A stretch of 64,000 nucleotides of DNA, from positions 186,001 to 250,000 of the forward strand of contig NW_026570319.1 of NCBI RefSeq assembly GCF_019649055.1, in the 5' to 3' direction. Below, piece after piece: positions 2,877-44,643 of the stretch (within the stretch, counting starts at the first letter, position 1; the number at the start of each line of letters is the position of its first letter). This stretch comes from Paramacrobiotus metropolitanus. Its lineage: Eukaryota; Tardigrada; Eutardigrada; Parachela; Macrobiotidae. The position numbers were made by a program, and so were the translations under genes. The notes below the pieces were generated by a model. It was given only the letters and a program-made list of their open reading frames with translations. It had not been told where the DNA came from and ran no database searches.

Positions 2877-5458
2877 ATGGAGTGCGTACTTTTTCTTGGT
2901 GCAGAGACTTCAGTGCCAGATATTCCTCGAGATACCACCAGCGCCTCGCCGACCAGCCAAGCCGAAACGCCCGTATCGTCGGCTAGCGTTATCACGCCGC
3001 TGGTCAAGTTGCGGCCCGTCCAGTGGTTCAGTACGGTTTCCACGAACGGCGCGCAGCGGAAAGAGCACGCTACCAGCGCCATTCAAACGACAGGTAATCA
3101 AGCTACATGTTTTGCTGAAATTTAAAATTTTTTTTCTCCATTCAAAGCGTTTGAACCGACACTTGTTCCACGCAGCTATAAGCAGCAGCTTGACCAATAC
3201 GACCGCTCAAAGCACGACATTTCAATCTTTCCCTTCAGGTGAATACTAAACGGCTGGTAACTAGGAGAACAGAAATACAAGGATAGCATTATTAAACTTG
3301 TGTTGTGTTTTGTGTTTTCAGTAAGAGATTTTTCAACTTTCTTATTTTAATTTTTAATTGTCATTTTTTAAAACAAAACGATTTTAGTGGAAACCAGCGC
3401 CATGTCCTGGCCAGTGGCACTACCAGACTCGGAAACTTTATACGACTATTCTGAAGGTAAATATTCGGATATCGTTGGCGAAATATGTAATATCTGTAGT
3501 TCACCCGGCGGGTAATAAGCATGACAGCATTGGCAGCGAAATTATATTATTCGCGCCATTTGGTTATTCATCTTTCTTTTTTATAGTGGAAATTGTGGCT
3601 CCCACTGTAGCCAAAAGAGCACCGCGAGTTGGTAATAAAACAGGTATATATATATAACACGGTAGCTCTAGCCACCACTTCATTTATAATCGTAGTACTA
3701 GCGCAGCGTTATGTGCACGCTACTAGCTCTGTCCATACAGAGTACGACAGATTATTTAGACTTTCGAACGGCAAAAACTTAATGTTTTTCTCTCCAAACG
3801 CATAATATTTTTCTCACCACACTCCAAACGATATTATATTCTTAACGCTGCGATCGACAACCGCTCACAACACGGCATTTCAAACTGTCCCTAGAAGTGC
3901 GTTAACGGCTAAGAAATTACGAGAACTGAAGTAACAAGAGCATTTAACACTCTGTTTACAGTTAGAACATTTAAAACTTTTTGGTTGCAGTGTTTAATTG
4001 TCAATAATTTTAAAAATAATTTTAGTAGTATCCAGCACAGTGTCTTCGTCAGTCGCAGTTCCAGCAGTCTCGCAGTCCGACATAGTCGATTACCATGCCG
4101 AAGAAGATTTTTCGGACATCGTTGGTGAAATATGTAGGTACACTTAACTCCCTGTGCTTGGTAGTAAGCAAAGAGTACTGCATGATCAATCAGGCGATCT
4201 AGTTACTCACTTTCGCTGCTTACAGTTGAATTGGTCGCGACTACCACGACAGCCACCAGCTCATCGCCTGTTGGTAATGAAATATAAAATTTTTTTGCAC
4301 TTTTCGCAACCGGCAGTCAAAAATTGTTCCGATCCGATTTTTGCAGACACCAAACCGTCATCGATTGCGGGAACGGCTTTCCAAGCCTATAGATCGCTGC
4401 CTACGTCGATTTCCTCGACTTTCACGCCATCCAGCGTGTCAAAGGTCACGGAAGCAACAACGTCGACGTCCGATAAGGCACCTTCGGAGTTCACACGTCC
4501 CACAAATAGTTCGCCGTTGGAAATGGATGCGCTCAGCGCTGCTCACATGACAGGTGAGCAATGCCGGCTAATCTTAAATTTTTCTACAATCGCTTTGATC
4601 ATTTTATTAATAAAATATTACTACAATTATGTAAGTAAACCATGTCACGTTACGGTAAAAATATGAATTTGTTGAAAGAATGGATATTTGTTTTTGTCCT
4701 TTTTTATTAGTTTTTTGTTGCTAGCATGCCACCATGCTTGCCTAACTTATCGAAATCTTGTAAAAAACTACGATCACACAGAGAACAACAGTGCGCCAGT
4801 GACAAATTCAGTGGAAAATGTGAGATCAAACAGAGGTATAGGGTCCCCTTCCGCCGGCCATACAGTAATTATTATACAGTCATTTCATAATTCCGATTTT
4901 TATCATCATTTTCAGACTTGATCGTAGAACCTGAATTGATGAACTTTATTATTAACATCTATCGTTAAAATATATAATTGGTGTCATTGCCATATTTACA
5001 TGGTATCACTATGATATTTACGTATACTACTGTATGAAAAATATTTTGTAATTTAATATGTTTGATTAACGACCCATAAGTTTTTATTTAAGTTACACTT
5101 ACCTGGTAAGTAGCTGTATTTAACGTAATTAAATTTGAGCTTTAAACTTTATACGATGTTTTCCAAACGGATTTCCTGATTGTTTTGTGTAGACGTCGCT
5201 GACGCCGAAGGCACATGGGTGACAGAAGCGGAAGGCTTCAAAAACGGCTACCCGCCGACGCCCATGTCCAGCACGACCGTTGTGGGAGAAGATCAAGAAA
5301 CGGTCTCGACCGCGGGCGTGAATGATACGGAGTACGACGCTGATTACGATCATGCGCCGGGAGATCAGCGCCGCGCGAGCAGTTTCCCACCCGAATGCCC
5401 GCCCTGCACCGGCAACTGTCCCTGTCCACTCTTCAAGCGCAAGCGGAAACATCTTTAA
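2877..5458 (+). CDS. Family gene A: stalk and Cys-rich tail, no recognisable signal or Ig exon
   Basis: Function unknown; homologous to genes B and C downstream. Proposed exons are 2905-3093, 3176-3238, 3388-3486, 3587-3631, 4026-4133, 4226-4273, 4347-4553, 4782-4835 and 5193-5458 (TAA). All have AG/GT borders and all junctions are phase 1. The first exon carries VPDIP, PVSSASVITP and VQWFST, as in B. The last encodes a DTEYDADYD acidic run, then PPECPPCTGNCPCP and a final KRKRKHL. Exons 3388-3486/3587-3631 and 4026-4133/4226-4273 are two copies of one exon pair. Signal-peptide and Ig exons like those of B and C are not visible upstream. If the first exon is instead read from the in-frame ATG at 2877, the product is about 368 aa with no convincing secretion signal. 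Gene A may be 5'-truncated, use divergent first exons, or be a pseudogene with an intact frame. Confidence 0.6.
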
Positions 5459-6120
5459 ACAATACCTTTCGCCCAGCTTTTTTAATGTTACACTGATATT
5501 CAATCAGTGTACTGTAGTGACACAGGTTTAAGGAACGTAGGGGAGGCGTGGTCAGCGCACCCGGACCGTCGGTCTCTTTGATCTTGAAACGGGCCGACGA
5601 CTCGTGTCTGCTGCTGTGTCATTACAGTACTTTGTGTTGCAAATTGCATTTTTTGTATAGTTTAATTATTCTGACCTTTGTGTGTCAGACGAAATATTCA
5701 GGAACAATTTTTGTACAACCACGCCGGTCTTATTTTGTTAATCGCGTGGCTATTCGGCTAATCATTGGTCTAAGGCACAGCGCGCGATTTATTTGCGGTA
5801 GATAATTTACTCTAGTAGATAAATTTTTTGACCAAAAGGACCTGGAAGCACATGATATTTAGTAAAGAATTTACTAAATGATCGTCCTGCACTCTTCATT
5901 CGGGCGTGTCCATATCTAAATGCACCCTTCAAAAATTTACAACATTTTCCTTTCGAGTAGTCAATACAGCAACGTCATCACATGTTTTAATAACAGGCTT
6001 ATTCGTATGACAAATTCGCTGCTGCATTTCTCATATTCCCAGTTTGCTGCGTTCATCATACAATTGCCTGCTCAGAGTAGGCCTGACAGATAACCCTTTG
6101 TCGCTAAAATGACAATTAAC
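5459..6120 (+). other. 3' flank of gene A, duplicated behind gene B
   Basis: No gene. Blocks at about 5650-5800 and 5935-6100, including a TGCCTGCTCAGAGTAGGCC motif, recur at about 16675-16810 and 16910-17090 behind gene B. The tandem duplication therefore includes several hundred bases beyond the stop codon. Similarity ends near 6110, where the GC-rich spacer begins. Confidence 0.7.
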
Positions 6121-6830
6121 GAGTTAATTGATGTTAATGTTAGCTGGAGGACATGCGCTCCCGCTCTTTCTCCTTTCGCCGTGTGTGGCGAGTTACGTGA
6201 GTCTGTTGGTGGCGCTGCGCGTCGCCGTGGCGCTTAGATCAAAGCGACCGCCGTCATGCACGGGCATGCCGTTTGCACTTGGCACTGTTCGTACGCTCGC
6301 ATTGCATCTTTCTGCAGTTCTCATTGCTGTCTGTTTTGCTCATTCGATCGTGTGCGCGCGAGTGATCTGTTCTTTTTTCAAGACAGATCTTCATCTTCTT
6401 GGATCTGCAGCTTGGATGTAGGACTTCGAGATGTCCGCACGCCAGCTTTGTTGGCTGTTCATGTGTGAGCGCAGCTATCTAGCTGATCACGCGCTAGTTT
6501 CTACCTAGCTGCTGTCTTTGCGACCGCTCAGCGTTTCATTCAACGCTGGCTAGCTTTGTTACCATCGACGCTGGCTAAGTTCACACCTGATTTCATATTA
6601 GCGCATTCTTTGTCATCTAAATCCCACTATCCGAAAAAGAGCCAACGGAACAGCTCCCGCTCGTGGCAGCTCTTGAACGCCACCGTTCGTTATGCACCCC
6701 TGGAGAACCATCATTACGAGGCGAACAGCGGGCAAGATGAACAACCACTCAGCGCAATAAAACGATCAACGGGAAATTCGCCATCCGTTACCCGTTGCAA
6801 ACGGAAAAACAGGGTGCCATGGACCGCTAC
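6121..6830. other. GC-rich spacer leading into tandem array
   Basis: Base composition changes abruptly from the AT-rich gene flank. Open frames at 6128-6421 and 6556-6888 match nothing I recognise. The matching position in the B-C spacer lacks this sequence, so about 4.4 kb (roughly 6113-10550) looks inserted between genes A and B. I found no LTR or terminal inverted repeat around it. Confidence 0.5.
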
Positions 6831-9760
6831 ACCTACCTCTGCCGCGGGACAAGCCACCAACGACGGCTGCACTGTCATAAGACGGTAAGTAGGCCCCTAC
6901 TACGGCTGCACCTACTTCGGACGGCAAGGGCAGGCAACCAGCGTCAACTGCACCTCCTTCGCGCAGTAAAGCGGTTTACCCAACTACGGCTCCAGCGAGC
7001 CAGGTCTCTAGCCACGGCCGCACCCACCATCACCGCAGGAAAGCCTGCGGGAGAGGACTGTGGTAACCTCCAACGGCAGTAGGACCATCAGTTACGATTA
7101 GACCTCCCTCCGCCGGCAGACAGGCCTCTAATCAACGGCGGCGCCTCCTCCGACGGCAAGTAAGCCACCGGCAATGGCCGCACCTTCCTCGGACGGCAGA
7201 CAGGCCCCCTACCAACGGCGGCGCCCTCCTCCGACGGCAAGCAGGCCACCAAAGACGGCTGCACCTTCCTCACACGGCAAGGTAGGCCTTCAACAATGGC
7301 CGCACCTTCCTCGGACGGCAGACAGGCCCCCACCAACGGCGGCGCCCTCCTCCGACGGCAAGCAGGCCACCAAAGACGGCTGCACCTTCCTCGCACGGCA
7401 AGGTAGGCCTTCAACCATGGCCTTCCTCGGACGGCAGACAGGCCCACACCAACGGCGGCGCCCTCCTCCGACGGCAAGCAGGCCACCAAAGACGGCTGCA
7501 CCTTCCTCGCACGGCAAGGTAGGCCTTCAACCATGGCCTTCCTCGGACGGCAGACAGGCCCACACCAACGGCGGCGCCCTCCTCCGACGGCAAGCAGGCC
7601 ACCAAAGACGGCTGCACCTTCCTCGCACGGCAAGGTAGGCCTTCAACCATGGCCACACCTTCCTCGGACGGCAGACAGGCCCCCACCAACGGTGGCGCCC
7701 TCCTCCGACGGCAAGCAGGCCACCAAAGACGGCTGCACCTTCCTCGCACGGCAAGGTAGGCCTTCAACCATGGCCACACCTTCCTCGGACGGCAGACAGG
7801 CCCCCACCAACGGTGGCGCCCTCCTCCGACGGCAAGCAGGCCACCAAAGACGGCTGCACCTTCCTCGCACGGCAAGGTAGGCCTTCAACCATGGCCACAC
7901 CTTCCTCGGACGGCAGACAGGCCCACACCAACGGCGGCGCCCTCCTCCGACGGCAAGCAGGCCACCAAAGACGGCTGCACCTTCCTCGCACGGCAAGGTA
8001 GGCCTTCAACCATGGCCACACCTTCCTCGGACGGCAGACAGGCCCCCACCAACGGCGGCGCCATCCTCCGACGGCAAGCAGGCCACCAAAGACGGCTGCA
8101 CCTTCCTCGCACGGCGAGGTAGTCCTTCAACAATGGCCGCACCTTCCTCGGACGGCAGACAGGCCCCCACCAACGGCGGCGCCCTCCTCCGACGGCAAGC
8201 AGGCCACCAAAGACGGCTGCACCTTCCTCGCACGGCAAGGTAGGACTTCAACCATGGCCACACCTTCCTCGGACGGCAGACAGGCCCCCACCAACGGCGG
8301 CGCCCTCCTCCGACGGCAAGCAGGCCACTAAAGACGGCTGCACCTTCCTCGCACGGCAAGGTAGTCCTTCAACAATGGCCGCACCTTCCTCGGACGGCAG
8401 ACAGGCCCCCACCAACGGTGGCGCCCTCCTCCGACGGCAAGCAGGCCACCAAAGACGGCTGCACCTTCCTCGCACGGCAAGGTAGGCCTTCAACCATGGC
8501 CACACCTTCCTCGGACGGCAGACAGGCCCACACCAACGGCGGCGCCCTCCTCCGACAGCAAGCAGGCCACCAAAGACGGCTGCACCTTCCTCGCACGGCA
8601 AGGTAGGCCTTCAACAATGGCCGTACCTTCCTCGGACGGCAGACAGGCCCCCACCAACGGCGGCACCCTCCTCCGACGGCAAGCAGGCCACCAGAGACGG
8701 CTGCACCTCCCTCGCACAGCAGACAGGCCCCTCCAACCGCAACATTGTCTTTGGACCGCAAGCAGGTGCACCAACAACGGCCGCGCCTTGCTCGTACAGA
8801 AAGGCAAGCCACCAATCATGGCCGCACCTAACTCTGGCAGACAGCAAGCTAGCAGCGACCGCTGAACCCACTTCTGACGGCAAAGCAGGCCTCCAGCTAC
8901 GGCTGCACCTTTCTCGGACGGAAGTCAGACATCTAACAACGGCGGCGCCCTCCTCCGACGGCAGCAGGCCCACCAACGTCGGCCGTTCCTTCCTCGGACG
9001 GAAGTCAGACCACTAATAACGCGGCGTCCTCCTTCGACGGCACGCAGGCCCACCAAGGAAGGCTTGGAATTCAATCTGGCCTCCTAGCAAGGGCGGCACC
9101 CTCCGCCGTTGATAAACACGCATACCAGCGACGGCTGTACCTTCCTCGAACGGAAAGGCAAGCCACCAATTATGGCCGCATCTAACTCTGGCACACAGCA
9201 AGCCAGCAGCTACGGCTGCACCCAGTTCTGACGGTAAAGCAGGCCTCCAGCTACGGTTTCCCCTCCCAAACGATGGCTTGTAAGCTAACTTGACGGCTGC
9301 ACCACTTCGGACGGCAGGGCAGGTATAACTATGGCCGCACTCACCTGCGACGGAAAGTCAAGCCGTCTGCGACGACTGCCCTGCTCGGACTGTAAGGCTG
9401 ATACAACTAAGGCCGCACCACCTCCGACTGCAAGGCAAGCCAACAGCGGGGGCTGCACCTACTGCGGAAGGAAAAGGAGGCCTCTAGCTACGGCTGTGCC
9501 CACGTCAGAGGGCAAGGCAGGCCTCGAACCACGGCCACCTCCGACGGCCAGACGCTACCTGCCATTACGGCCGCTTTGTATCCAACTGTAAGGTAGGCCT
9601 TCAACGACAACCACCTATCTTTCGCGACACGGCGTTCCCCCAGCTACGCTCGCACCTACTTCCAACGGCAAGGCCAGCCAACAGCGACGGCCGCACTTAT
9701 CTCGGGCGGCAGGTTATCACCTATAGCCACACCGACAAAAAATACGGGTCTCTAACGACA
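6830..9760. repeat. 121-bp higher-order tandem array (three ~40-bp subunits)
   Basis: The core, about 7150-8720, holds roughly 13 units of 121 bp, a few shortened to 116 bp by loss of ACACC-like bases. Each unit is three diverged ~40-bp subunits that start GGCAAGGTAGGCC, GGCAGACAGGCC and GGCAAGCAGGCC and end in a CTCCGAC/CTCGGAC/CTCGCAC box. Single diverged ~40-bp monomers flank the core on both sides (6830-7150 and 8720-9760), the usual picture of a simple array whose centre was amplified as a trimer. Because 121 is not a multiple of 3, the reading frame rotates between units. Many overlapping frames are open on both strands, so I do not treat any of them as a gene. Confidence 0.9.
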
Positions 9761-10386
9761 ACTGCACCATGTCTGACGGCAAGCAGGACCGGTTCCGATC
9801 TCTGGCACCTACAGCTAACCTCCGTCCTGGACGGTGTTATTGCCAACGCGAAGTTTGCTCTCCTACTCTTGGGAACTACAACGACGAACCAATTCGGGAC
9901 GGTTACCGGATTACACTGCGCTAGCGATGCATACCTAACCTGCATAACAGCGAATTTCACCATTGAAAGACTACATTGTGCTGCCATACCGCGACAGGAT
10001 CAGCACACACTGCTTCCGCAACGGCGACGCAACGACGCCTGCCCTGGCGAGATACACATAGCCGAATTTCGCGCTCTCCCAATGGAATTCAGACTCTGCA
10101 CCAAATACCTCCGTGGAACCATGCCAACTGCTGCATCAGTCCTTATACTATCAATCCCTATACTGGGTTGTTTGGGGTTTTGTTTGGGGCCTTCGGTTGC
10201 GCAGGGCACTGGTCGCTTTCTTCCGCCGACCCGGTCGGCCGGCTTCTCGCTGACCCACGGTCACCGCACGCAGCCGATCACCGAGAGCACCAGCCTCCCA
10301 GCAGCCGGGGCTCCAGCGCCCCCCAGTGGATTCCGGAAGCGGTAACATTAACGGTAGAATGCACTACTCGTACAGCTTTGGACAAA
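9761..10386. other. GC-rich unique segment after the array
   Basis: Contains a plus-strand open frame (9869-10345, 158 codons) with a hydrophobic stretch near SVLILSIPILGCLGF. It has no family signature and no clear start context. It may belong to whatever element brought in the tandem array. I see no firm gene. Confidence 0.4.
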
Positions 10387-10528
10387 ATGGTCGCATACCC
10401 AACATCTCCACATTCGGTACGAATGCAGCGCAGTGCACTGTACGACTGAGTTCAAAATATCCGTTTCGTACAAGTGCGCTGCACCGCTTGCGTACAGAAT
10501 GCTGGGTATGGGGCTGTGCGACCATTAA
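10387..10528. mobile_element. MITE-like palindromic element, copy 1
   Basis: About 140 bp, beginning AATGGTCGCATACCCA and ending near its inverted complement, TGGGTATGGGGC..GCGACCATT. Inner sequences also pair (GTACGAATGCAGCGCAG against CTGCACCGCTTGCGTAC). A second copy with about 95 percent identity by eye lies at 51390-51531. It has no coding capacity. Confidence 0.7.
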
Positions 10529-13046
10529 ATTTTTGTCCTACATTGTACACCATTGTACACCTGCACAACTGGTTAGGAAGAAAGTCGCATGGCGCAACGG
10601 AATAGCTGGTGTGGACTGCAAGCTGACCGGCGTAAATCGAGTAAAGAAGAGCGGGGCAAATGGTGCTTCATTGACCCCCAAATTAAATTGGAAGCCATAC
10701 TGGACTATTGAACGGGTTTGGAATCGTGAAGGGCGCGGCAGTCGGCTAGAGCGTCGCTAGAAGCGGTCAGAAGAATGTAGATGAATAAACATTTGTTGGT
10801 TTTCTTTATACACAGATTTGCGGAAGGCCGTTGCTATTATTTTGTTGTTTTATTGCTTGATGCACAGGGTTTAAAATATCAGATAAGTATACGTACAAAT
10901 CTATTTCTTCTACGATGTATTAAATCATGAATTATGTATACGTTTGCGTTGTGAGAGGACAACATTTATCTGGTGGCATTGGGAAGGAACGGAATTCGAG
11001 TTTCGAACAAGAACAATAAACTGGCGCTGGATACGAGGCTTGTATGCGATGTGAAAGCCTCGTGCCAAAGCATAACACTACACTATAGTCTATATATATA
11101 TTTTGCCATGCTCGTGCTGGCCGGTGCCTGGATGGCACTGAGCAGCGATCGAACGCATTTTAAGATACGATGTCAAAATAGCCAGTTCGACTGAGCTGTT
11201 CAGCGGATGCACTCTATAAAGTCTCTAACACAGAAATGTTTTACGGGAATGCTACTTTTGGTTCTGCCACAGCCAATGCAATGATCGAAAAAAGTATTGT
11301 CGTACAGGTGTACTTCCGTACAACCGTCAATCGTACAGTGTTAAGGCCTTTTTACAGTAGAATTTAAATTGTACGTCATAGACTCTTGTTAGATGAGTCG
11401 TGTACAGATCTGTACATGTGGCAGTCTACGCATTGCCAGACTAAAGAGAGTACTGGTATAAACGGTCGTTCCAGTACCAGTATACACAGAGCTATATTAC
11501 AGTCTATGGGACGCGCCGGTTAAACTTTCCGCGTATATAATTTCCAGGTGTACGTATTTACCGGTGTATGTAAAAACAGGTTTCATTGTATTCTTTTCTT
11601 CAGTAATAAAACTTCGATAAGTTTTTGTACTGTAATTAAACTACAGTAATCATTTTCAGTGTACACTTACCTCGATAATTACAGTTTAAAAAAGTCGCGA
11701 CGTACTATGTACATTGTAGGACGTTGAATTACGCATTTTGTGAGAGTACTGTATGTACCAGTACCACGCGCGCTGCGTGCGTGTTCTCGGCATCCACACA
11801 ATTTGGCAAAGTGGATCGTTTCAAATATTAGCGATGCAGCGTTGCAATTTTAGTTATCCCGGTTTCCTTGCTTTTAATAGAGGTAGAGTAGAATAGCTAC
11901 GAGTAGAGTGGAAGACTCAATACAAACAGTCGCCTCCGCACTGTTATATCATGCATGATACGAAGTAATTCTACTGCGGATATATTCAAAACATGTCTCG
12001 AAACTAGGAAAATGCGCCAGTGGATGCATTGTAAGACCGAAGCGCAGTGCTCAGCAGAAATCTTTTCCGAGTTTAGGAAGTTTTAAAAAGTTATAGTTTT
12101 TGGCTACTTATTGTTAGTATGCAGTTCAAAAAGGTTTCGTATGCACTGTTTAACGAACATGCAAAACAAAAATTAATTGACTACTCAAGACCAAAGATCA
12201 TTAGGCACAGCCTTTTTGCCATGGTTCCAGTACATGTGTTTGAAATATATGCATTTTCTGTAATCATGGTAAAAAGGCTGTATCAGAACCATCGAGAGAC
12301 TTATCCCACTCAAAAAAGACACTGATCCCAGTCGAGAAAAGAGAATTAAATCGAGTGGCACGATCGTCACCGATCTGCTCACGTGGCCAACTCGGTTAAA
12401 GCCTTATTTATTCTACCGAATTGTTCTTTAAGATGTCGTATCTGTACAATTCCACAGAACATTTCTGCTGCAGGCTGCAGCCAATGCCAGATTGACGACA
12501 GTACTGTCGTACGTGATACCGGTGTTGATGCACCTGTACGGACGTCTTTCAAGGTGCATTTCGATGCTGTATTGTTGGGAGTGTCATGTACGGGTGCAGG
12601 CTCATCCGCACTGCGCTTTCCCATGCCAAACTGCCAATTGAAACTATGTATTTAAATAGCTTGGTGCTGGTTACCAGCGTTCGACTCACGTCCTGCCACA
12701 TTTCGCTTTTTCACACACGACACGGCGATCGCTACAACAGTGGAGTTCGATTGATTTCCTTTTTGCATGATTCAAAAGGTCTTTCACGCTGCCATCCTCA
12801 CAAATATTCTGCCATCCTCACAAATATTCTGATAGCATCGAAGCATAAATTATATTCTGCTTTGGTACTCAGTTTTGTACTAGCATTGTGATACTTATTA
12901 AAGGTCTAGTACAGTCTGATTTTTGGTGCCGAAAGCCTGCATAGTAATAATAAATATAGTTTCCAACGGTGTTAACTTTAAGAGCTTGATTATTTTATTG
13001 ATGGGGAGATAGAGTACCAGTTGGAAATAACTGCACATCATCGGCC
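10529..13046. other. 5' flank of gene B
   Basis: Non-coding. Segments at about 10580-10665 and 10975-11285 are shared with the flank of gene C (about 17692-17780 and 18000-18262). A 22-bp tandem duplication (CTGCCATCCTCACAAATATT, twice) lies at about 12789-12832. An imperfect inverted repeat sits near 12205-12293. The conserved upstream block is about 1.8 kb before the start codon here but only about 0.5 kb before it in gene C. Confidence 0.55.
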
Positions 13047-16000
13047 ATGGTACAGCAGAAGTGGACGGCGCTGCTGGTCTGTCTGACCGTGATCTTGGGA
13101 TGTCCCCGGGCCCACTCTTGCCCAGTGCAGAAACCCACACCGCCCTGGGAAATGGAGCCCTATAAGGACCGGATCAACGAGTGTTTAATGTGGCACTATG
13201 TGGAGCAACGACCGGCGCCGAATTATTACAACCAATACATGCTCACATTCTGGAAGAAAAGCCCGCGCTACCCCGTTCAACTGCTGTGCTTGGTCAACGC
13301 CTTGACCGATGGTAGGCTCATGTCATACAGACGCTACAGGTAGCAGGGCTGCCACATTATGCTAACGCTTTTCATTGACTGTCCAAGACGAACGCTACCG
13401 CGGCCGATGTATTTCCTAGTATTCTTTTATTCTGTACTTATAAAAATAATGGTGGGGTAAACTTTAAAACAGTGTCGGATAGTAAATATGGTGAAGGCAG
13501 AACACAATTTTCTCTGTGCTGCTCCAATCATTTCAATGGATTATGCTTAGCGTTGCCCACACGGCTGCATTTTATAAGTGTAGGTTGTAGAGTGTATACA
13601 CTATGAGCAGCCATAATGGAAAACTCCAGACGGATGGCTAGAGAAGTACAGGAAAGGTGTGTTGGGACGTTTGGTTTATACATGGCGCTCATGTGCCGAG
13701 CCGGACTTAGCCCTATATTCAGCCGCAACCTTCTACTCCAGCCAAGGACAGCAGCAAGTCCTGTGATTATTTACCTTAAAGTTAAAAAAACTCAGTACTT
13801 TTCTGTTTAATTTAAAAATTCAAAAATACTCTTTAATTTAAATTTAATTTAATTTAAAATTTAAAATTTGAAATTTAAAATTTATTACCACGCTCAGGTG
13901 TACGAGTACTATGGATAAAACTTATCAGCAAAATGAAAATGTACTCGTAAAATTATCAGCAGTGATGTACCTCTATAAGTTTACTTATACTATCAATAAA
14001 ATAGTAAACGCTTTAAGTAAACAATAAATTTATTGCGTTGAGGGTTTTTGGACAAAATGGCGGCTTCACCGAAATATGGCTCTACTTAGTCTACTGTAAT
14101 ATGTTGCTTTATCGTTTTCCCATCTCTACATGTAGATCGCTTGCCTTCGTCTAAAGTGGAAATGTATGTAGCGGAAGGCGATCCTGTGCACTTGCCCTGC
14201 CGCCCGTTGGAAAATGTCCAACGGAGCATTCCCATCGACTCCGACTACTATAGCCTTGGCCCAAAAGGTCTGTACTACTGGACGAAAGACGGGCGACATT
14301 TTTGCGAAAGATGGGGGTGGGCCGATCGGAGTTATAAGTGTCACGGTGCCGCTGAGCACAGCTCGCCGGAGGGTGAACTGTGGATCAAGTCCTTCACGAC
14401 AGCGGACGCGGGGGTTTACGCTTGTGCCTTTCTCCACAAAGGTAGCAGTGGCAATTTGCTGAGGGTTGGACAAGCCTACCTCCTCCGTGATGCGCGCACG
14501 AGTAAGTATAAACCGGTCAGTAAATCTAAATTCGAAATTAATACTTACTTAAGTTACTTTTATCAGTTATTACTAACCTTTAAAGTACAAAAGTAATACA
14601 AATATTACTGAAATATTACTGAAATGATAAAAATATATTACTGAATTAGTATTGTATTACTGAAATTATTGTTTAAAACGAAATGCATGTGCATATCAAA
14701 TTTTGATTTAAATATTAGTATCATAAAAATTTAAGAAAATATCGATGAACACGTATTTGAATGCTTTATATTATCACTTTATAAACAAATCTAATTACAA
14801 ATATGTCGGCAGCAAAACGCCATTAACTGCTTTACTGGCAATCTGTTAAATGAAATCTTCTGTTATCGAAAATTAACGGTCTTCAATTTTTTCTGGATGG
14901 CAGCCATTGTTGTGATACCTACTTGATCAGCATTCTCAGTGCCCTATGCCATGATGAGTCGTTTATTAACAGAGGTAACAGTGCCAGACATTCCGGCCCC
15001 TGCCATCATTGCCGCGCCAGAATCCATCCCGCCGCCCAGTCACGCAGAAGTTCCGTCTGTGTCGTCGGCTAACGTCATCACGCCGCCGACCGCTTTACTG
15101 CCCACCCAGTGGTTCGCTACTGTTCTGACGAATGCCGCCCCGGAGGGACTGCAAGGTAACGATCAAACGACAGGTGAGCGTGTCGCTTGGTTTTCTCGTG
15201 AATTATGCGTCCTGTATGGGACTTCTTTCCGAAAAGCGGTTAGCAGTCTGATCGCTCAGAGCACCGAAATTGCCTTTGGCTTATATCAAGATTATGATTT
15301 AACTGTACTTTGTTTTTTTACCAATGTAGCAAAAGCCAGTGCAATGATCTCGTCTGCGGCGTTGTCAAACGCCTCGTCGGAAATATTCGCTGAGCTTGAC
15401 GAAAACGATTACTCGGATGTCACTGACGAAATTCGTAAGTCCTTACTAATTTACATGGTTCTTATGGTTGATAAGGATGCGCGCTGCAAAAACATTCAAG
15501 CGATTAGCTTAACGTATTGCCTTTTATAGTGGAACTATCCCCGTCCAGCGCGGCAGTGGTCAACAGACGAACGACACCGACGCCTGCAGTACTAGTTACG
15601 GGCTTGAGTGCACTTCCCACAAATAGTTCGCCATGGGAAATGGAAGCGGTCAGCATTGCTCACACGACAGGTAAGCATTGCCGGTTATCTTAAATTTCTC
15701 AGCAATCGATGAAGTAATTTTAATAATAAAATATTACTCCAATTAAATACACATTATTACGCTATAAATATTTGTTAAAAGGAAGATTATTTGTTTTTGT
15801 CATTTTTACTAGTTTTTTTGTGATAGCATGCCACCATGCTTGGCTAACTGATCGAATTCTTATGAATGAATAAAAAACTGCGCTTACACAGAGAACATAA
15901 GTGCGACCCTGACAATTTCAGTGATTCAGTGGAAAACCTGATGTCAAATCGCAGTATAGTGTCCCCTTCCGCGCCATACGACAATCATCACAAACTGGTT

Positions 16001-16583
16001 TTCATAATTCAAATATTATCAATTTATTAATCGTAGTACCTGAACTGATTAGTGTTATTAATAATATTTAGTATTAAATTTATAACCATGGTATCATTAT
16101 CGTATTTATGTGGTATCGCTATTATAATGTGCAGTTACGTAAGTCATGAGAATTATTTATTGTAATTATAATTTTGATTAAATATCAGTAAATTACTTAT
16201 TTATTTAATACTTATCTGGTAACTTACAGCTGTAGGTATTTGACGTAATTAATTTGAGGTTCAGATCTTACAAGATATTTTTTAAACGGATTTTCTGATT
16301 GTTTTGTGCAGACGTCGCTTACGCCGAAAGCACATCGCTGGCTGAAGCGGAAGCTAACACAAACGGTTTACCGCCGTACACCGCGCCGCCGCCCGATTCA
16401 AGCACGCAAGTCGTGGAGGAAGAAAAGGTGTCGACCGCGGACGTGAATGATACGGAGTACGACGCTGATTACGATCATGCGCCGGGAGATCAGCGCCGCG
16501 CCAGCAGCTTCCCGCCCGAATGCCCGCCCTGCACCGGCAACTGTCCCTGTCCCCTCTTCAAGCGCAAGCGCAAACATTTGTAA
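13047..16583 (+). CDS. Family gene B: secreted Ig-domain protein with Cys-rich tail
   Basis: Unrecognised family. Proposed exons are 13047-13311, 14136-14501, 14973-15173, 15330-15434, 15530-15670 and 16312-16583; all junctions are phase 1, giving 449 aa. Residues 1-24 look like a signal peptide (basic start, LLVCLTVILGC core, cleavage after AHS). Residues 25-88 form a small module with a CPVQ start, WEMEPYKDRI, and a LLCLVNALTD end. Residues 89-210 form a V-like Ig domain, with Cys110 and Cys185 (DAGVYAC) as the expected disulfide, Trp137 in LYYWTKDG, and an extra pair, Cys145/Cys157. A Ser/Thr/Pro-rich stalk follows, then an acidic DTEYDADYD run, PPECPPCTGNCPCP, and terminal KRKRKHL. No transmembrane segment or GPI signal is seen. 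An equivalent of exon 4 of A and C survives at 15237-15290 but its donor GT is now AT. The start ATG has a favourable GGCCATGG context. Binding partner unknown. Confidence 0.75.
13805..13885. repeat. AT-rich simple repeat in intron 1 of gene B
   Basis: Repeated TTTAATTTAA and AAATTTAAAA units. It enlarges this intron (824 bp) relative to the equivalent intron of gene C (343 bp). Confidence 0.8.
15237..15290 (+). pseudogene. Disabled exon 4 of gene B
   Basis: Aligns with exon 3176-3238 of gene A and 20301-20360 of gene C through the shared IAQST..AF core. Its acceptor side (AAAAG) and phase are plausible, but the donor position reads CAAG|AT instead of CAG|GT. The frame is open through the whole interval 15174-15329, so skipping, or retention of all 156 bases, would both keep the frame. 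Confidence 0.6.
15898..15954 (+). pseudogene. Disabled microexon (equivalent of gene A 4782-4835)
   Basis: Matches the gene A microexon (ENNSAPVTNSVEN...) at its ACACAG|AGAAC start. It carries a small duplication that shifts frame into TGA and lacks the GAG|GTATAG donor (now GCAG|TATAGT). It is therefore probably skipped. Gene C keeps the start (near 20953) without a consensus donor. Confidence 0.55.
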
Positions 16584-16588
16584 ATAAT

Positions 16589-16594
16589 AATAAA
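16589..16594 (+). promoter_or_regulatory. Poly(A) signal of gene B
   Basis: AATAAA begins six bases after the TAA stop codon of gene B. It is the nearest canonical signal and would imply a very short 3' UTR; the surrounding AT-rich sequence makes this uncertain. Confidence 0.35.
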
Positions 16595-18663
16595 ATTTAT
16601 TGATATGGTTTAGCTTTTTCCATGGTACGCTGATATCCAATCAGCATATGTGCCTGAAATTGCCGCGTTGTTGTATTGTTTAATTATTCTGACCTTTGCG
16701 TGCTAGGTAAAATATTTATGAACGATTTTTATACAACCGCACCGGCTATAATTTATTAGTCGCGTAGCCATTTGGCTTAATTAATTGTCTAAGGCTCATA
16801 GCCAGATTTACTTCCGTTCGATATTGCAACAGGTTTAATTCTTGGTAATCAACCAATAAAAAACTGCCCTCTTACCTATGAATTAATCGGTTGTGTCTGT
16901 ATCTAATTGGCCTTTCGAGCATTTATAACATTTTCCTTTCGAGTAGCCAGTACAGCAGTGTCATCACACGTTCAACATGACTATCCGGATGAAAACGTTG
17001 ATGCAGCATTTTTTCGGTTGCCAGTTTGCAGCGCACCTCATACGATTGCCTGCTCAGAGTAGGCCTGACAGATAACCCTTCGTCGCTGTACAGTGGAGTG
17101 CAATACTAGTACAGTAAAATCTGCGTGCTTTGATCACCTACGGTTCCTTCAAAACCGTTCAGTGTAGGAGAGTGTTCAATATTCGCAGTAGCTGCCCCTG
17201 GGGGGCAACTTGGGGTGCTCCAGGGGCAGCAAGATGGATCCCCGGGGATATCTAGCGGGGGTCGCCTCTTACTTCTGGATAGTCTTTTCAAGGGCTCTTG
17301 ACATTTTTGACGCCATTTTGATACGAAACTTTGTAGATCAACGAAAACACAGTATAAAGCTGCATAGAAAACAGACTATAAGTTGTGTAAAAACAAGTGC
17401 ACAGTGCGCATATAAAACGGTGTTGCGAAAAGTTATTCTCTCACTGCCGTCTTTCTCACATCTCGGAGCCGGATTTTAGGCCTATGTTCATAGTCATTTT
17501 ATTAGTACGGTTCCCAGAATAGCGTTCAATGTTCACTTTATACAGATGTTCAATATTCGCGGTGGCCCCCTGTGTTATAGTCTACGAGACGCGCCAGTTC
17601 CTGTACGTATACGGGCGTTTAATATTCGCAGTTGTTCAATTTTCGCAGTTGTTAAATCTCACTGAGTTTACTGTACATCTGCAAAACCGGTTAGGAAGAA
17701 AGTCTCATGGCGCAACCGAATAGCTGATGCGGACTGCACGTTAACCGGCGAAAATTTATTAAAGAAGAGCGAGGCAAAACGTCCAGGAAACAAACATGCA
17801 ACCAATAAATCTTGAATGAATCTTAAGACAAATAATACGAAGCAATTTTTATTAAGACCAGTAATACGAGGCTTTAGTTCAGGTCCAACTTCATCAAGCG
17901 TCAGATTAAAGTGTAAAGTTTACGTGCAAATTTGTTTGCTCTACAGTGTACTGTGTAATGTGTATTGTGTATACGTATCACGCGTGAAAAGACAGCAATT
18001 AGCTGCTGGCATGGAGACGGATCGGAATTCGCTTTTCGAACCCGAACAATAGACTGAAACTGGACGAGAGTCTCGTATGCGATTCGAAAGCATCGTTCTA
18101 GCCGGAGCGTGGATGGCACTCAGCCGCGATTGAACGCACTTTCAGATTTGTGCCAGAACTACCAGTTCGATTGAGCCGTTCAGCGGATGCACTCCTAACA
18201 CAAGAATGTTGTAAGCATTTTACAGGAAGCTCTTACTGCTTCTGCCACAGCCAATGCCGGGTCGAGAAAAGTCAGGGGTGCTTCCGTACAACCGTCCATC
18301 GTATAATGCTAAGGTGCGTTTAAAATTTAAATACATGTACATGTGTACATTTGGCACTAAGCATTTCCGAGCTAACAAGAATATAAACCGTCGTTCCCAG
18401 CATTCACCCACTCCTCGCTACATTCCATTCTTTACATACGGCACGGCGATGGCTTGACAGCGAGTTCGGTTCTCGTGTAACACTGTATGGTCAAAGTCTT
18501 TTTCGTCCAAGAATTGTGATTATTAATGATTAACGGATTTGTATCATACAGCTTTCACTGTGAATTCCTGTTGTGTAGACCGTATATTTCTGTATTGCAT
18601 TTTTACTTACGTGTCATTTCTTGCCGCGCCGGTAATTGAGTTAAAAAGACAGCATCGTCAGTA
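16595..18663. other. Spacer between genes B and C
   Basis: Non-coding. The first ~500 bp match the 3' flank of gene A. At 17190-17231 is a hairpin (GCTGCCCCTGGGG.../...CCAGGGGCAGC). A TGTTCAATATTCGC motif recurs at about 17173, 17549 and, as variants, 17620-17650. From about 17692 the sequence resembles the upstream flank of gene B, so this is the junction between two duplicated units. Confidence 0.6.
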
Positions 18664-21459
18664 ATGGCGCCCGGGTGGAAGCTGCCGCTGCAAACCATTC
18701 TGGCCGTCGTCGTGAACTGTCCTACGGTGACCCGCGGCTGTCCCCGAACGCCCTGTATTCCTTCGTGGGAAGAAGAGCCCTATAAAAGCCGGATTCTGCA
18801 CTGTGAGAGACAGCATTATGTGCCACCGCGGACTCCGCCTGCATTTCACAGATTCAGCGGACACCTTGCGAGAGAACATTACTTATCGAGGAGCGCTCGC
18901 GATCCAGACCACCTACTGTGCTTGATCAACACATTAACCGATGGTAGGTCACGGCTAATAATCATATAATATTTTTACAATGTCAGCTGATGCAGTGGAG
19001 CCACAGTGCCTACTTATTCACTGTGCACGTCGATTGGTTATTGGTATGTGTACTCGTATTTTTGTGCAGAATATTTTTTTTACGAGGAAAAACTTAGTCG
19101 CATCAGTTGCGCGCTATTTAGACAGTTTATTTAAGCAAATTTTGAGCATCAGCGGTTGGGTTTTAAAGTAACCGTGGTCCCACTGCCCAATGCCCATCCG
19201 ACTGATTACAGTAATAATCATATTGATTCATGCCTTTTACTTCGCATCACATTGCTTCGTCGTTCTAAATTTTTTGCAATACGTAGATCGCTCGCCATCG
19301 TTCCAACATGCCCTCTATGTAGAAGAAGGCCATCCTGTGGAATTAGACTGTTATCCGCTAGAAAGCGTCCCACGGGGCATCCACATCAGGCGCGCATATT
19401 TCCCCGGCTTCCAAGATCACGCTACCGGTCTCTACTACTGGACTAAGGACGCGCGCCAATTTTGTCATAAATGGGGGGGGATCTATCCAGACCAGCAATG
19501 CGGCGCGCCCGTTGAACTGGATCATAGCGCGCCGGATGAACAAGTGTGGATCAAGTCGTTTACAACGGCCCATGCGGGCTTATACGCCTGTGTGTACATC
19601 GAAAACTGTAACAACTGGTGCTCGCTGCGCGTTGGACCAGCCTACCGCCTCCATGTGGCGTCCAAGAGTGAGCAAAATCCATATTTAATTAAACATGTAT
19701 TATATGATTGTGTCAAGACATATATTGTTTAAATTATTTCTGTAAAATAATTTACTAAATTTACTAAATGAAGTAATTACCCAGCGTGCAGCTTTGCCGT
19801 TAAATGAATTCAAGGAAATTATTTGCTTTGGGTACAAAATATCTTTGATTTTCTCAAAGGTAAAACGTAATCACTTAGTTACATATCAACATTTTGTATA
19901 ATATCCAGGATTTCTGTCCTGGTATATGTCTGGTAAATTTTGCAAAATACTCGTTTTACTAACTGCTTTAAGTGCGCAGTGCATCTGATTTTTGGCAGAA
20001 GAGGTTGCAACCTTAGATGCTGCGCAACAAGTGACCAGTGACGCGACAAAATCTTTTCCGCCAGTCAAACACACAGAAATGGATCCGCCCATGTCGTCGG
20101 CTGGTGTTGTCACGCTGCCCGCCGTTTTGCTGCATACGCAATGGTTCAGTACGGCTCCCGCGAATGGCGTGCTGCAGGAAACTAACACTGCTAGCTACGA
20201 CGCTCAGGGGAAAGGTAAATCCAAAATGCTCTGATCGCTGGCTTGTATTTGAATGCTTCTTTTTAATGGCTGTGACTGAACCGGGCTTCTTATCATGCAG
20301 CCAGCAAGATTTCTACAAATACATCCGCTCAAAGCATCGCGTTTCAGTCTGTTCCTTCAGGTGAATTGACTTATGTGTAATTCAGAACAGTGAGAGCAGA
20401 AGTGCAACGATGGTAGTCAGCACTTTGCCGTAATGATATTATTTACGACTATCTGCTTGTGATGTTTATTCCACATTATAAAAAGTCATATTAATTTTCA
20501 TCTTCACAGATGTCCCACGTCCATCCGCCACGTATACGGAGATCTTCCACTCCGGGACACCGCTGTCCACATCCATCCCCTCGCCTTCTCCGTCGGTCAG
20601 CGCGGCAATGGACAACGAAGCCATAACGCCGACAACTAGAGCACTGTCTACGGGCTTCAAGCAGTCGGCAGCATTTGTAAACCCTTCGCTATGGAAAATG
20701 GATGCGGTCAGCGCTGCTCACACGAGAGGTTAGCAATACCTGCTATGGAATATTTATCTGTAATCGTCCACATACTAACAAGAGTAGAATATGTACGATC
20801 AAATTCGATCAATAAACGAAGTTATTTTCATAAGTATGTAATAAATAAGTGAATATATTTTGTCGGATAATTTTTAATACATAATTTTTGTTGCTCGGCT
20901 TGCAACTTTGGCCCGATTGGTCGAATTCTGTTGGCTCACATACACAAAGTTGCTTAAACAGAGAACAACAGTTCGACCGTGATAACTTTAGTGGATTTGT
21001 TAAGCTGCGCTCGTGTTCACGAGATTGTTTATAATAGGATTTAGGTTAATTTATTAAGATCGTATCAGAACATGGCATCGCCGTTGCATGGTTAGACGTC
21101 CTGCATGAAGTCCAGTTAAAATAGAAAATTAATACTAATAGGTCTTTTTGTGGTTTTCTACATGTGGCTTCCGTTGTTCGTTTTGTTCTATAAATACAGA
21201 CGTCGCAGACGCCGAAGACTTATCGGTCACGGCAATGGAAACCATCAACAGTACACCGCTGTCCATTGCGCTGCCCAACGCGAGCATCATTGATGAAGAA
21301 ACTGTTACGGTGGATGGCGGGAACGAGACCGAGTCCGCCCCCGAATTCGACTGGGTGCCGTCGGATCAGCGCCGTCACACCAGGTTCCCGCCCGAGTGCC
21401 CGGCCTGCTCCGGCAACTGCCCCTGTCCACCATCTAAGCGCAAACGCAAGCATTTATAA
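18664..21459 (+). CDS. Family gene C: secreted Ig-domain protein with Cys-rich tail
   Basis: Proposed exons are 18664-18943, 19287-19667, 19999-20214, 20301-20360, 20510-20728 and 21200-21459 (TAA). All junctions are phase 1 with GT/AG borders, giving 471 aa with no stop. The N-terminus has a hydrophobic LQTILAVVV signal-like segment, then CPRTPC and a module ending LLCLINTLTD as in B. The Ig V-like exon starts at residue 94: VELDC (Cys115) pairs with the Cys of AGLYAC, LYYWTKD holds the core Trp, an extra pair lies in FCHKWG/QQCG, and a third pair is possible in ENCNNWC. The stalk exons are Ser/Thr/Pro-rich (MSSAG, TQWFST, AQSIAF, SIPSPSPS). The tail is DQRR..FPPECPACSGNCPCP followed by KRKRKHL. 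Likely secreted or matrix-bound; function unknown. It is the best-preserved gene model of the cluster. Confidence 0.8.
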
Positions 21460-27022: not shown

Positions 27023-28361
27023 CAAAGGCGATTCCAAAAGTTTCTTTCCCTATTTCATATCTTTTGAACCGCGCAACATTTCCTTGGTCTTACATTTTAT
27101 TTATTCAAAGTGATCACCTTTGTATTTATTGCACATTTTACACCGGTGCAACCAATCATCAAAAACATGAGAAATTCCATCTACTGAAAGACTTCGCAGA
27201 ACACCTCTCACGGCAGCTTCCGCTTCCGTCGCATTTTTATAGTGTTTTCCTCTGAGCAGATCCTTCATCTTCCAAAACAGGAAAAAATCACACGGGCTTA
27301 GGTCTGGAGAATAGGGTGGGTGCGGGAGTAATCTAACTTTCCGTGACTTCAGAAAATTTTTTGTCAGGGAGGCCGTGTGAGCACGCGCGTTGTCGTGGTG
27401 CAGGTGCTGGTGGCGCATTTGCTTCTTTCCAACATCTTTCTGCAGCTTAGCCAGGGTCTTGCGCAAACATTTACGAATGTAGAATTGAGCCGTCACTGTT
27501 CTTCCTTCGGGTACACGCGTCACACTTATTACGCCTCTGGCATTGAAGAAAACTGAGAACATAGTCTTCTCAGTGTAGCGATCGCGGCGTACCTGCACTG
27601 GTCCCTTCTTCCCTCTTTCCGTCCATTCCCTTGATTGTCGCTTCGTAAGCGGATCCCAATGGTAAACCCAGGTCTCGTCTCCAGTGAAGATGTTTGATAA
27701 ATAACGTTGAGGATGATTCCGACAGCGCTTGAGCAGATCCCGACAAAAATCAACACGAGCCCGTTTCTGACTTTCCGTGAGCAGATGAGGCACAAATTTC
27801 GACACAATTTTCCGCAAATTCAGGTGATCGTGCTGGATGGTCGCCACCGCTTGTGCTCCAATCCCCAGATCGTACATTATCTGCGAAACTGTCACTCGTG
27901 GATTTTGGTGCACGATTTCGCGAACACGAGCAATGTTTGCGCTGTTGACCGCTGTCCGCGGTCTTCCTAATCTTCGACCATCTTCCGCAATTTGCTGCCC
28001 GTTCCGGAATTTCCTGTACCAAGTCCTAACTGTCTGGATCGAAGGACAATACTGTCCGAAAACCCCACTAATTTTTTCAAAACAAACTCTTCAGTCGTTA
28101 CCGAGACAAAATTCAGAAAAGATAACAGTGCGAATATGCTCCTTGGTAAACGGCATGTCGAAATACAGGCGCGTGCGAGGCTTTGCCACACTGACTGGCA
28201 AAAATTAAATGCGATAAATAGCCAGTGGTTAACTGGCCTGCCGGATGTGTATGAGTCATTGCACCACTGACCATTCTCGACAGTGGTGTACCTAACTTAC
28301 GTCCAGCTGCTTCTGCTCAGAAGATATGAAATAGGGAAAGAAACTTTTGGAATCGCCTTTG
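27023..28361 (-). mobile_element. Full-length mariner element
   Basis: A 1339-bp element bounded by TA dinucleotides (27021-27022 and 28362-28363). Inverted repeats of about 43 bp begin ACAAAGGCGATTCCAAAAG on the left, with the complement ending CTTTTGGAATCGCCTTTGT on the right. It carries one transposase gene on the minus strand. The two flanks join into one copy of the hairpin-core repeat found elsewhere in the window, so the insertion is younger than that repeat. Confidence 0.95.
27101..28156 (-). pseudogene. Mariner transposase with one in-frame stop
   Basis: DNA-cutting and joining enzyme of the Tc1/mariner superfamily, acting at the element's own inverted repeats. The reading frame runs from ATG at 28156 down to a stop at 27101, about 351 codons, the usual mariner length. 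The N-terminal helix-turn-helix region (MPFTKEHIRTVIF, FRNGQQIAEDGR, RLGRPRT) and catalytic motifs are readable: GDETWVYHWDP with the first Asp, HHDNARAHTA with the second, and YSPDLSPCDFFLF with the third, fitting the D,D34D class. Codon 22 (28091-28093) is TGA, directly after GND, and is the only break I find. Translation from a later start would lose most of the DNA-binding domain, so the copy is probably inactive unless the stop is read through. Confidence 0.93.
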
Positions 28362-33524: not shown

Positions 33525-34808
33525 TGTAGTGTAGTGGCTACGCGCCATATTAGCGCGTAGCAACCCGCATGGCTGTGTTGACCTGTAGAGGACGCATTTT
33601 ATGTGGTACTACGAGTATTTCATGATTCAGTATCTATCCGGCCAGAGTGGCACAATAAACATCTGTGCTAAGACGTGACAATTGGCGTAAAGTGTAGTAT
33701 TCTCTGAACTCTGAAGCGGGAAAGGAGAAGAGGAAAGCGAGCGCTATATAATAAGAGATCGAAAATGACGACCACAACCGATCAACTGACCAAGTTCAAT
33801 CCGGAAACCATGGACTGGAAGGCGTGGAAGTTTTTGTATGATAATTATACTGTGCTGACCGACCTTCATACGGACAAGCACCGTGCCTTGCTAATAAACA
33901 GTCTGGACACGAAGGCCCTGCAGCTTTTAGTTTCGATGTGCAAACCCAAGATGCCGTCCGACTTCACACTGGGTGAACTGGTCACGAAGCTGGAAACGGC
34001 CTACGCCCCGTACACGAACCAAATAACCGAGTGGGCGCTGTTCTTCAGTCTTCGGCAGGACGAAAAAGAAAGCCTGGTGGACTTCGCGACGCGTTTACGT
34101 GACAAAACGATCCTATGCGACTTTCCGGCAACAGTGCTGGAGAAGAATTTAAGTGCTGTGCTCGTGGCAGGCGTCAAAAGCGACGCAACAAGACGCTACC
34201 TAATGCTGCAAGAGCTGAAGACGTTCGACGCCGCCCTCCAAATTGCTATCAAATATGAAACAAGCGTGAAAGAGGCGAGAAAAACTAACGTGGAAGAGAA
34301 TGTGGTGAACAGTATTAAGAAGCGAGAAACAAGAGTGAAGAAAGAGGATAAGAGCAGGAGAGAGAAGAGACAAGAAGAGAATGAAGAAGAAAGTGGAAGT
34401 GACGAAGAGATGCCGTCCCGGCGGAAGTGGATCCTGGCGGCATACGCCCGAGGAATGCTGGTATAAAAACACCAGGTGCAATGCTTGCGGCATGAAAGGC
34501 CACATAGAGAGGGCATGCCAGCAGAAGGACAACAAGAAGAAGGAAAAGGTCGATACCGTCTACAATGTCGAAGAAGACTATTTCGACATTTTGCCATAAT
34601 GTTCATTTTGCCATAATGTTCTGCTTTTTCACTTCATTTTAAGGGTGAAGGTGTAGTGTAGTGGCTACGCGCCATATTAGCGCGTAGCAACCCGCATGGC
34701 TGTGTTGACCTGTAGAGGACGCATTTTATGTGGTACTACGAGTATTTCATGATTCAGTATCTATCCGGCCAGAGTGGCACAATAAACATCTGTGCCAAGA
34801 CGTGACAA
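33525..34808 (+). mobile_element. Short gag-only LTR retrotransposon 1
   Basis: Direct 157-bp LTRs (33525-33681 and 34652-34808) begin TGTAGTGTAGTGG and end GTGACAA. They differ at only one or two positions by eye. Target duplication is TACC (33521-33524 and 34809-34812). A primer-binding-site-like TTGGCGTAA follows the left LTR, and a purine run (AAGGGTGAAGG) precedes the right LTR. Total length is only 1284 bp, with gag but no protease, reverse transcriptase or integrase, so it must be non-autonomous. Confidence 0.93.
33765..34599 (+). pseudogene. Gag protein of LTR element 1 (one frameshift)
   Basis: Retrotransposon capsid/nucleocapsid. The first frame starts ATG 33765 (MTTTTDQLTKFNPETMDWKA) and runs 233 codons to 34466. 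It includes the helical capsid-like region (ITEWALFFSLRQDEKESLVDF, ATRLRDKT) and a long charged stretch. The nucleocapsid part continues in the +1 frame to a stop at 34599, with a zinc knuckle CNACGMKGHIERAC and a damaged preceding knuckle (C...HTPEECWYKNTRC). A one-base change near 34400-34420 would account for the shift. A related Gag lies at 46979-47572. Both end in a similar DIL/DILP motif just before the 3' LTR. Confidence 0.88.
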
Positions 34809-41637: not shown

Positions 41638-41862
41638 AACTACGGTCAAACGTCGAGGACAAACGGAAACCGATGTTGTACAAAGAGCATGGGATATTTA
41701 TTTGGGCGCGGTGTTGTGCACCGGATGTTCAGCTCATGATCTATGCATGTACAGCAGACGGCAACAATTTTCGCAAGAACAACAACATCTTGACCTAAAC
41801 ACACAAAGTCTGCCAACATGAACAACTTCGTTTTATTTGACGGGTTTTACATGCCCAAGCAA
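41638..41862. repeat. Split direct repeat, proximal copy
   Basis: Overlaps the last ten codons of the recombinase gene on the minus strand. The overlap of coding end and terminal repeat is also seen in known PAT-like elements. Confidence 0.85.
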
Positions 41863-44150: not shown

Positions 44151-44643
44151 AGGCAAACACATGATTCAAAAAGTAAAGTTGCAAGTATACGATACTTCCG
44201 GTTGGATGATGCGATTTATGCCAGGGCAAGCATTTGTACTGCTTCGCACATGAACTTGTTTGCCTACCGTAAATACTCGTATGTTGTGCCTCCATTCTAT
44301 CGGTGCCGAAAAGGCGATGCATGTACGTAGTTATTTTCCGAAATTGTAGTTGCTTCCGCGTAACACGGCACACGGAGTGTTTGTGTTGTTGCTTTTCTGC
44401 ACGTTACATTTCCGCTTTAATCCGCACTATATTACCGTCAAAGTTATTTCTTGATAATAATATTACACGCTGAAAATAAAATAACTTTCCGACGGAATTC
44501 CATCGTGCAAATACGCAACCGAACTGTACCCTTCCACAAACAGACCATAAACGGACACGAACATGCGTGCCATGTTAGGAAAATAAGCGCTGTGCATACT
44601 GGACCGGACATGAGCCCAATTAATTCGCCTGCATTTCGGCATT

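Follow-up and report, generated by a model that had tools for sequence, protein, structure and literature searches.

The 64,000-nucleotide stretch of the tardigrade Paramacrobiotus metropolitanus analyzed here, which we call the window (contig NW_026570319.1, hereafter C99, positions 186001-250000), carries genes of a tandem family encoding modular, probably secreted proteins with a single immunoglobulin (Ig) domain of V type. An earlier note on this DNA had described three such genes, A, B and C, between window positions 2877 and 21459, and had read them as secreted recognition or matrix molecules of no assignable family. That interpretation is partly supported: a modular, probably secreted Ig family arranged in tandem is indeed present, while the number of copies, the start of gene A and the ending of the tail required correction. 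The genome in which related sequences were sought is the 169.8-Mb assembly of 533 contigs.

The array and its gene models

Exon-level sequence searches place five genes in tandem on C99, in the order Z1, Z2, A, B and C. Copies Z1 (about C99:173468 to 176830) and Z2 (about C99:178562 to 181665) are upstream of gene A and outside the window. A decayed sixth copy occupies window 35920-36810 on the forward strand (+), where interrupted stalk-1-like and tail-like pieces were matched in a local profile scan at 35920-36060 (7.9e-10) and 36683-36802 (1.1e-4); a 64-base DNA match to gene C (80%, E 1.6e-8) also falls here. The stalk-1 profile held a Z1 row pieced from two reading frames, the other profiles being unaffected, and the match at 35920 is also backed by the DNA match to C. 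The proposed tandem family is therefore confirmed as an array, and its size is five copies plus the decayed one.

Gene B (13047-16583, +) and gene C (18664-21459, +) are each modeled with six exons, giving predicted proteins of 449 and 471 residues without internal stops. Their introns begin with GT and end with AG, and every internal exon is of phase 1, so that adding or dropping a module need not shift the reading frame. Both genes follow the module order first proposed for them, namely a hydrophobic N-terminus, a small Cys module, a V-type Ig domain, a Ser/Thr/Pro-rich stalk and an acidic, Cys-rich, polybasic tail. In gene B, the hydrophobic start and Cys module are encoded by exon 1 (13047-13311), the Ig domain by exon 2 (14136-14501), the stalk by a first (14973-15173), an acidic (15330-15434) and a last stalk exon (15530-15670), and the tail by the exon that contains the stop (16312-16583). 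The corresponding exons of gene C are exon 1 (18664-18943), the Ig exon (19287-19667), stalk exons 1 (19999-20214) and 2 (20301-20360), the last stalk exon (20510-20728) and the tail exon with its stop (21200-21459), all on the same strand.

Gene A had been credited with part of this order. It carries all of the modules seen in B and C, its two 5'-most exons lying outside the window: the first exon (about C99:182792) and the Ig exon (C99:184984-185295) precede window position 1, and 2877 is therefore not the start of the gene. Within the window and on the (+) strand, stalk exon 1 (2905-3093; phase 1, AG/GT borders) has DNA similarity to Z2 and profile similarity to B and Z2, and stalk exon 2 (3176-3238; phase 1) encodes a peptide pattern that recurs in gene C at 20301-20360 and in Z2. 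Two further phase-1 exons are candidates, a small one at 3587-3643, for which Z2 has a similar peptide, and an acidic one at 4026-4133 that ends in EEDFSDIVGEI and has the counterparts ELDENDYSDVTDEI in B and EEDYSDNVGEI in Z2. The last stalk exon (4347-4553; phase 1), the DNA of which from 4494 matches B from 15611, is followed by the tail exon with the stop (5193-5458). Stalk exons were picked from a list of phase-1 candidates, guided by similar exons in other copies, and the predicted stalk models are less sure than those of the first, Ig and tail exons.

The interval between genes A and B contains a minisatellite (window 7174-8721) of 12.9 copies of a 121-base unit with 96% match, with degenerate repeats extending as far as about 9.1 kb.

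Copies were also counted across the genome, the counts being lower bounds. A four-query Ig-exon search together with the local profile scan found Ig exons at no fewer than 18 distinct places on seven contigs: six on C99 (including a fragment at about 304 kb), three each on C14 and C241, two each on C155 and C138, and one each on C136 and C1. The match at C14:1588929 is weak (E 0.0035). Of these, twelve have an uninterrupted frame across the domain and make up the alignment; the remainder are interrupted, partial or outside the examined set (the two on C138 and C14:1588929). A tail search of the genome gave 16 matches at E<=10, 12 of which are strong (E<=4e-7) and are distributed over C99 (six), C241 (two), C136 (two), C321 (one) and C155 (one), with at least three of these 12 interrupted. 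The local profile scan found no tail in the downstream flanks examined of the copies C1, C14a and C241a, and some relatives may do without one. In C1 (L016:2284-2931, +) and C241a (L013:1484-2011, -), two strong hydrophobic segments stand ahead of the Cys module, and these copies may be membrane-bound relatives of the unit formed by the Cys module and Ig domain. One locus on C14 (L017) has two distantly related Ig exons of opposite orientation, at 5039-5485 (-) and 8313-8741 (+), about 3 kb apart.

Interrupted copies comprise the one at 36 kb of the window, C99:302k, two places on C136, one of those on C155, and C138. Their number would be expected of a family that is mostly decaying and little used, with the array as a relic. 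However, all five array copies keep their first, Ig and tail exons open, and the ratio of nonsynonymous to synonymous substitution rates (dN/dS) in the first and Ig exons is below 1. We regard decay as a very improbable description of the family.

Protein modules and their kin

The predicted B and C proteins begin with a hydrophobic stretch (best 12-residue Kyte-Doolittle mean 2.8 in B and 1.9 in C) and have no strong hydrophobic segment beyond their first 30 residues (best 19-residue mean 1.02 and 1.04, respectively). Judged by this hydrophobicity, they probably carry an N-terminal signal peptide and are secreted. The Cys module that completes exon 1 is about 65 residues long and ends in LLC(L/M)(I/V)N.L, with cysteines at positions 25, 46 and 81 in B and 26, 31, 47 and 86 in C. 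It has no match in Pfam at E<=10 (Z1 and A) or at E<=1 (B and C). Helices are predicted by an AlphaFold model built from a two-row alignment (predicted local distance difference test, pLDDT, 53; predicted template modeling score, pTM, 0.31), and a fold search with it returned four PDB matches, all at E 4.7 or above.

The Ig domain can be read directly, as had been claimed. Pfam V-set and Ig_3 match in all 12 members scanned at E<=1, with a best V-set value of 2e-7 and gene B alone scoring below the curated V-set cut-off (21.2 against 26). The hallmarks are the B- and F-strand cysteines, the C-strand Trp and the DxGxYxC motif; across the 12 aligned members W49, G93, Y95 and C97 are invariant, and C22 and D91 nearly so. 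All five array copies have an additional Cys pair between C' and D, and a second pair brackets the FG loop in nine of the 12 members, B, C241c and C14b being without both of its cysteines. Both pairs may form disulfides. The FG loop is 14 residues long in Z1, 15 in Z2, 20 in A and 11 in both B and C.

Comparison with known proteins led to the superfamily and no further. A PDB sequence search with the single Ig domain of B reached a best E of 0.014, and a 12-row Ig profile matched 228 sequences at E<=0.01, the 60 listed being varied Ig-superfamily proteins that include contactins, Robo and DSCAM. A fold search with the Ig exon of C placed SIRP V domains first (E 0.0076), with none at E<=0.001 and with a low-confidence AlphaFold model as the query (pLDDT 50, two-row alignment). 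The Ig tree is mostly unresolved, the pairing of C1 with C241a being the only well-supported group. Because of these Pfam, PDB profile, fold and tree results, the family is assigned to the Ig superfamily, as a V-like member of no named family. The profile and structure-based searches thus gave no strong match to a characterized family, and the weak resemblance they did find is confined to the Ig domain.

Several systems nevertheless share parts of this architecture. Snail FREPs (fibrinogen-related proteins) are secreted, have an N-terminal Ig part and form a multigene family, features that the present proteins are predicted to share; the difference is the fibrinogen domain, for which no Pfam match was found in the first, Ig and tail exons of B and C, in one stalk stretch of B or in one of A. 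Insect hemolin and the secreted forms of Dscam, both from ecdysozoans and with proposed immune roles, belong to the Ig superfamily and were among the general matches of the 12-row PDB profile search, but they string together four or more Ig domains, whereas each gene here has one Ig exon plus a stalk and a Cys-rich, basic tail. V domains of the SIRP/CD47 type are the nearest fold neighbors of the C Ig exon, at about 15-20% identity; these are vertebrate membrane receptors, and the likeness, at E >0.001 with a low-confidence model, implies a common V fold alone.

The sperm proteins call for separate comment, as the family could conceivably serve in gamete or mating recognition, like the Ig-bearing sperm proteins of other animals. 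In sperm proteins of the IZUMO1 type a helical domain precedes one Ig domain, and in IZUMO, SPACA6 and TMEM95 CXXC pairs lie within an N-terminal four-helix bundle. The Cys module, helical in its low-confidence model, likewise stands before a single Ig domain; IZUMO1 ranked 23 in the Ig fold search, and the Ig domain of B has a weak match to Sp38 (E 0.15). These IZUMO1 and Sp38 similarities are at noise level, however, and the Cys module of B and C has no CXXC motif and is much smaller than the IZUMO1 counterpart, nor is any membrane anchor seen in B or C. In this species 325 genome bins, spread over 29 scaffolds, are reported to be male-biased (PMC11191345), but the sections of that paper drawn on here are silent on sex bias of this locus. 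A gamete function is, on balance, unlikely.

VCBPs, described as V domains joined to a chitin-binding domain (PMC4757023), resemble the family in combining secreted V-type Ig heads with a common C-terminal part within a small gene family. The V domains of VCBPs are in tandem, whereas one Ig exon per gene was found in Z1, Z2, A, B and C, and the C-terminal chitin-binding domain of VCBPs has no Pfam counterpart in the tails of Z1 and C155 (E<=10) or of B and C (E<=1).

The stalks of B and C are about 200 residues long, 33-35% Ser/Thr/Pro, and free of cysteine. The tail begins with an acidic run, which in B and C contains N-glycosylation sequons, and continues with QRR, the Pro/Cys motif CPxCTGNCxCP and a basic RKR cluster. 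In eight of eight aligned tails the residues Q, R, R, E, C, P, C, N, C, C, P, R, K and R are invariant. The KRKRKHL end first described is not universal: past the basic cluster the copies end in KHL, KHAV, QQLLKAMTFDT or AL. Since these last residues differ among copies, a C-terminal sorting signal (KDEL-like or PDZ) was considered and judged unlikely.

The tail matches no Pfam family at E<=10 (Z1 and C155) or at E<=1 (B and C), and neither the Cys module nor the tail of Z1 has an NCBIfam match at E<=1. Against PDB, the tail profile found nothing better than E 0.84; the antibody heavy chains at E 0.84 and 2.9 are sub-threshold and are not evidence of kinship. Consistent with the view that the genes fit no known family, the Cys modules and tails tested thus match nothing in Pfam, and homology is limited to the Ig domain.

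A constrained tail beneath divergent heads

Selection was examined by Nei-Gojobori counts among the five array copies. Over the last 32 codons of the tail exon, synonymous and nonsynonymous differences number 10 and 0 for Z2-A (Fisher p 6e-8), 10 and 0 for Z2-B (p 3e-8), 6 and 1 for A-B (p 0.0004) and 7 and 4 for Z1-C (p 0.002). Just before this conserved end the same exon gives 6.7 and 21.3 for A-B and 7 and 27 for Z2-B (p about 0.8), with dN about equal to dS; other pairs have a dN/dS of about 0.5-1 there. The Fisher test was applied to four pairs for the last 32 codons and to two for the adjoining part. Purifying selection acts strongly on the final 32 residues of the tail, and because the contrast lies within one exon, mutation rate or copying is an unlikely cause of their conservation. 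Consistently, 31 of 32 tail residues but only 30 of 115 aligned Ig residues are identical between Z1 and the distant copy C241c, and the tail dS of 0.51 for this pair indicates constraint rather than a fresh copy. The claim that heads and stalks diverged while the end of the tail was kept is borne out by these comparisons.

Gene conversion was weighed as the cause of tail likeness among A, B and Z2 and set aside: 6-10 synonymous changes are present, and selection explains the conserved end. Genes A and B are more alike in their 3' halves at the DNA level, introns and flank included, and some conversion or unequal exchange could have contributed there.

A tail of this kind could also belong to a precursor, in which cuts at QRR and in the basic cluster would free a small Cys-rich peptide; this would be about 20 residues long, contain four cysteines and have the same sequence in A, B and Z2, with the remainder of the protein acting as a carrier. 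The basic sites flank the conserved block, QRR and RKR are invariant in all eight tails while later residues vary, and no other part measured is as constrained as this block. However, an Ig domain under purifying selection would be an odd pro-region, and QRR has no P4 arginine of the full furin site. We consider release of such a peptide quite improbable.

The Ig exon has a pairwise dN/dS of 0.22-0.49 over ten pairs, which indicates that the likeness of the Ig domains is more than chance, and the first exon 0.31-0.73 (ten pairs). Pooled by region, the ratio of nonsynonymous to synonymous differences per site (pN/pS) in the Ig exon is 0.06 for the C strand, 0.21 for E-F, 0.55 for framework region 1 (FR1), 0.53-0.62 for the BC, C'-D and FG loops and 0.71 for the G strand.

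Our preferred explanation, held tentatively, is that the family consists of secreted, soluble binding molecules, each with one V-type Ig head on a flexible stalk and a common tail. The heads would have diverged, probably to bind different partners, with the C and E-F strands kept and the BC, C'-D and FG loops differing, the FG loop in length as well as sequence. The mucin-like Ser/Thr/Pro stalk would act as a spacer between head and tail. The tail would perform one shared job, most likely covalent oligomerization through its four cysteines in the manner of an antibody hinge, the CPPC motif of which offers a comparison, and its basic cluster may attach the proteins to anionic surfaces. Such proteins would be used for soluble recognition, immune or other, rather than in matrix.

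The same data can be read in structural terms, with the products belonging to the extracellular matrix, cuticle or eggshell; the stalk and the Cys-rich polybasic tail would then cross-link, the Ig domain would serve adhesion, and divergence of head and stalk would reflect relaxed constraint. A Ser/Thr/Pro stalk and a basic tail would suit matrix binding, diversifying selection gives no sign, and evolution is fast both in the first exon and in the tail exon ahead of its conserved end (dN/dS about 1 for A-B and Z2-B). On the other hand, a single V domain whose core is conserved while its loops vary in length is well suited to ligand binding, the stalk is short at about 200 residues, and no matrix or cuticle Pfam domain was found in the exons tested. 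A structural role is a serious contender, if a somewhat unlikely one.

Several observations weigh against soluble recognition. Pooled pN/pS exceeds 1 in no Ig region of the five array copies, which gives no direct indication of diversifying selection; with no value above 1 and a high dS, such selection is neither shown nor excluded. FR1 varies as much as the loops and the G strand more, and neither is a classical binding loop. In the Ig tree the five C99 heads do not form a clade of their own, although they may still have a single origin. A handful of genes would be a small repertoire for an immune system, and secretion, disulfides and glycosylation are predictions.

For most of the insect immune genes examined, tardigrades are reported to have no homolog (PMC7056985), and they are also reported to be without components of NF-kappaB signaling (Mapalo et al. 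2020, PMC7056985). The latter report lends a recognition role some plausibility, as it leaves room for other defense molecules. As its authors caution, absence from transcriptomes is not proof. In that study, moreover, the circulating proteins PGRP-SA/SD and GNBP1/3 are missing from all samples, onychophorans included, so that their absence is not special to tardigrades, which slightly lowers the odds of soluble recognition. That the family forms an antibody-like humoral recognition system, with germline-encoded divergent single V heads, most of them bearing a Cys-bracketed loop that resembles complementarity-determining region 3 (CDR3), a mucin-like stalk and a constant disulfide-forming tail, is doubtful.

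No title or abstract among the open-licence literature matches listed describes a secreted V-type Ig family in tardigrades. If these proteins are soluble recognition molecules, they would be a concrete and testable candidate for tardigrade recognition of microbes or gametes, and would add to the known instances of constant tails that carry divergent heads. Should they prove structural, the tail is still a cysteine motif under strong constraint and without a Pfam family match.

Other features of the window

Mobile elements are represented by several frames elsewhere in the window. A mariner-type transposase frame (Transposase_1, DDE_3, HTH_48) lies at 27101-28087 (-), and a Helitron N-terminal domain (Helitron_like_N, 1e-32) at 60284-60796 (+). 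Two gag-like retroelement frames are found at 33708-34463 and 46925-47569 (both +), the second alone having a Pfam match, to a CCHC knuckle. At 41833-44400 (-), a reverse transcriptase frame (RVT_1, 2e-13) stands beside a frame of 353 residues without a Pfam match; the latter possibly resembles a tyrosine recombinase, which would make the element DIRS/Ngaro-like, with Pfam backing the reverse transcriptase only. Finally, one frame at 49524-50747 (-) encodes an astacin metalloprotease (1e-33) together with a weak leucine-rich repeat match (5.7e-4, under the curated score), a pairing that would be unusual if real.

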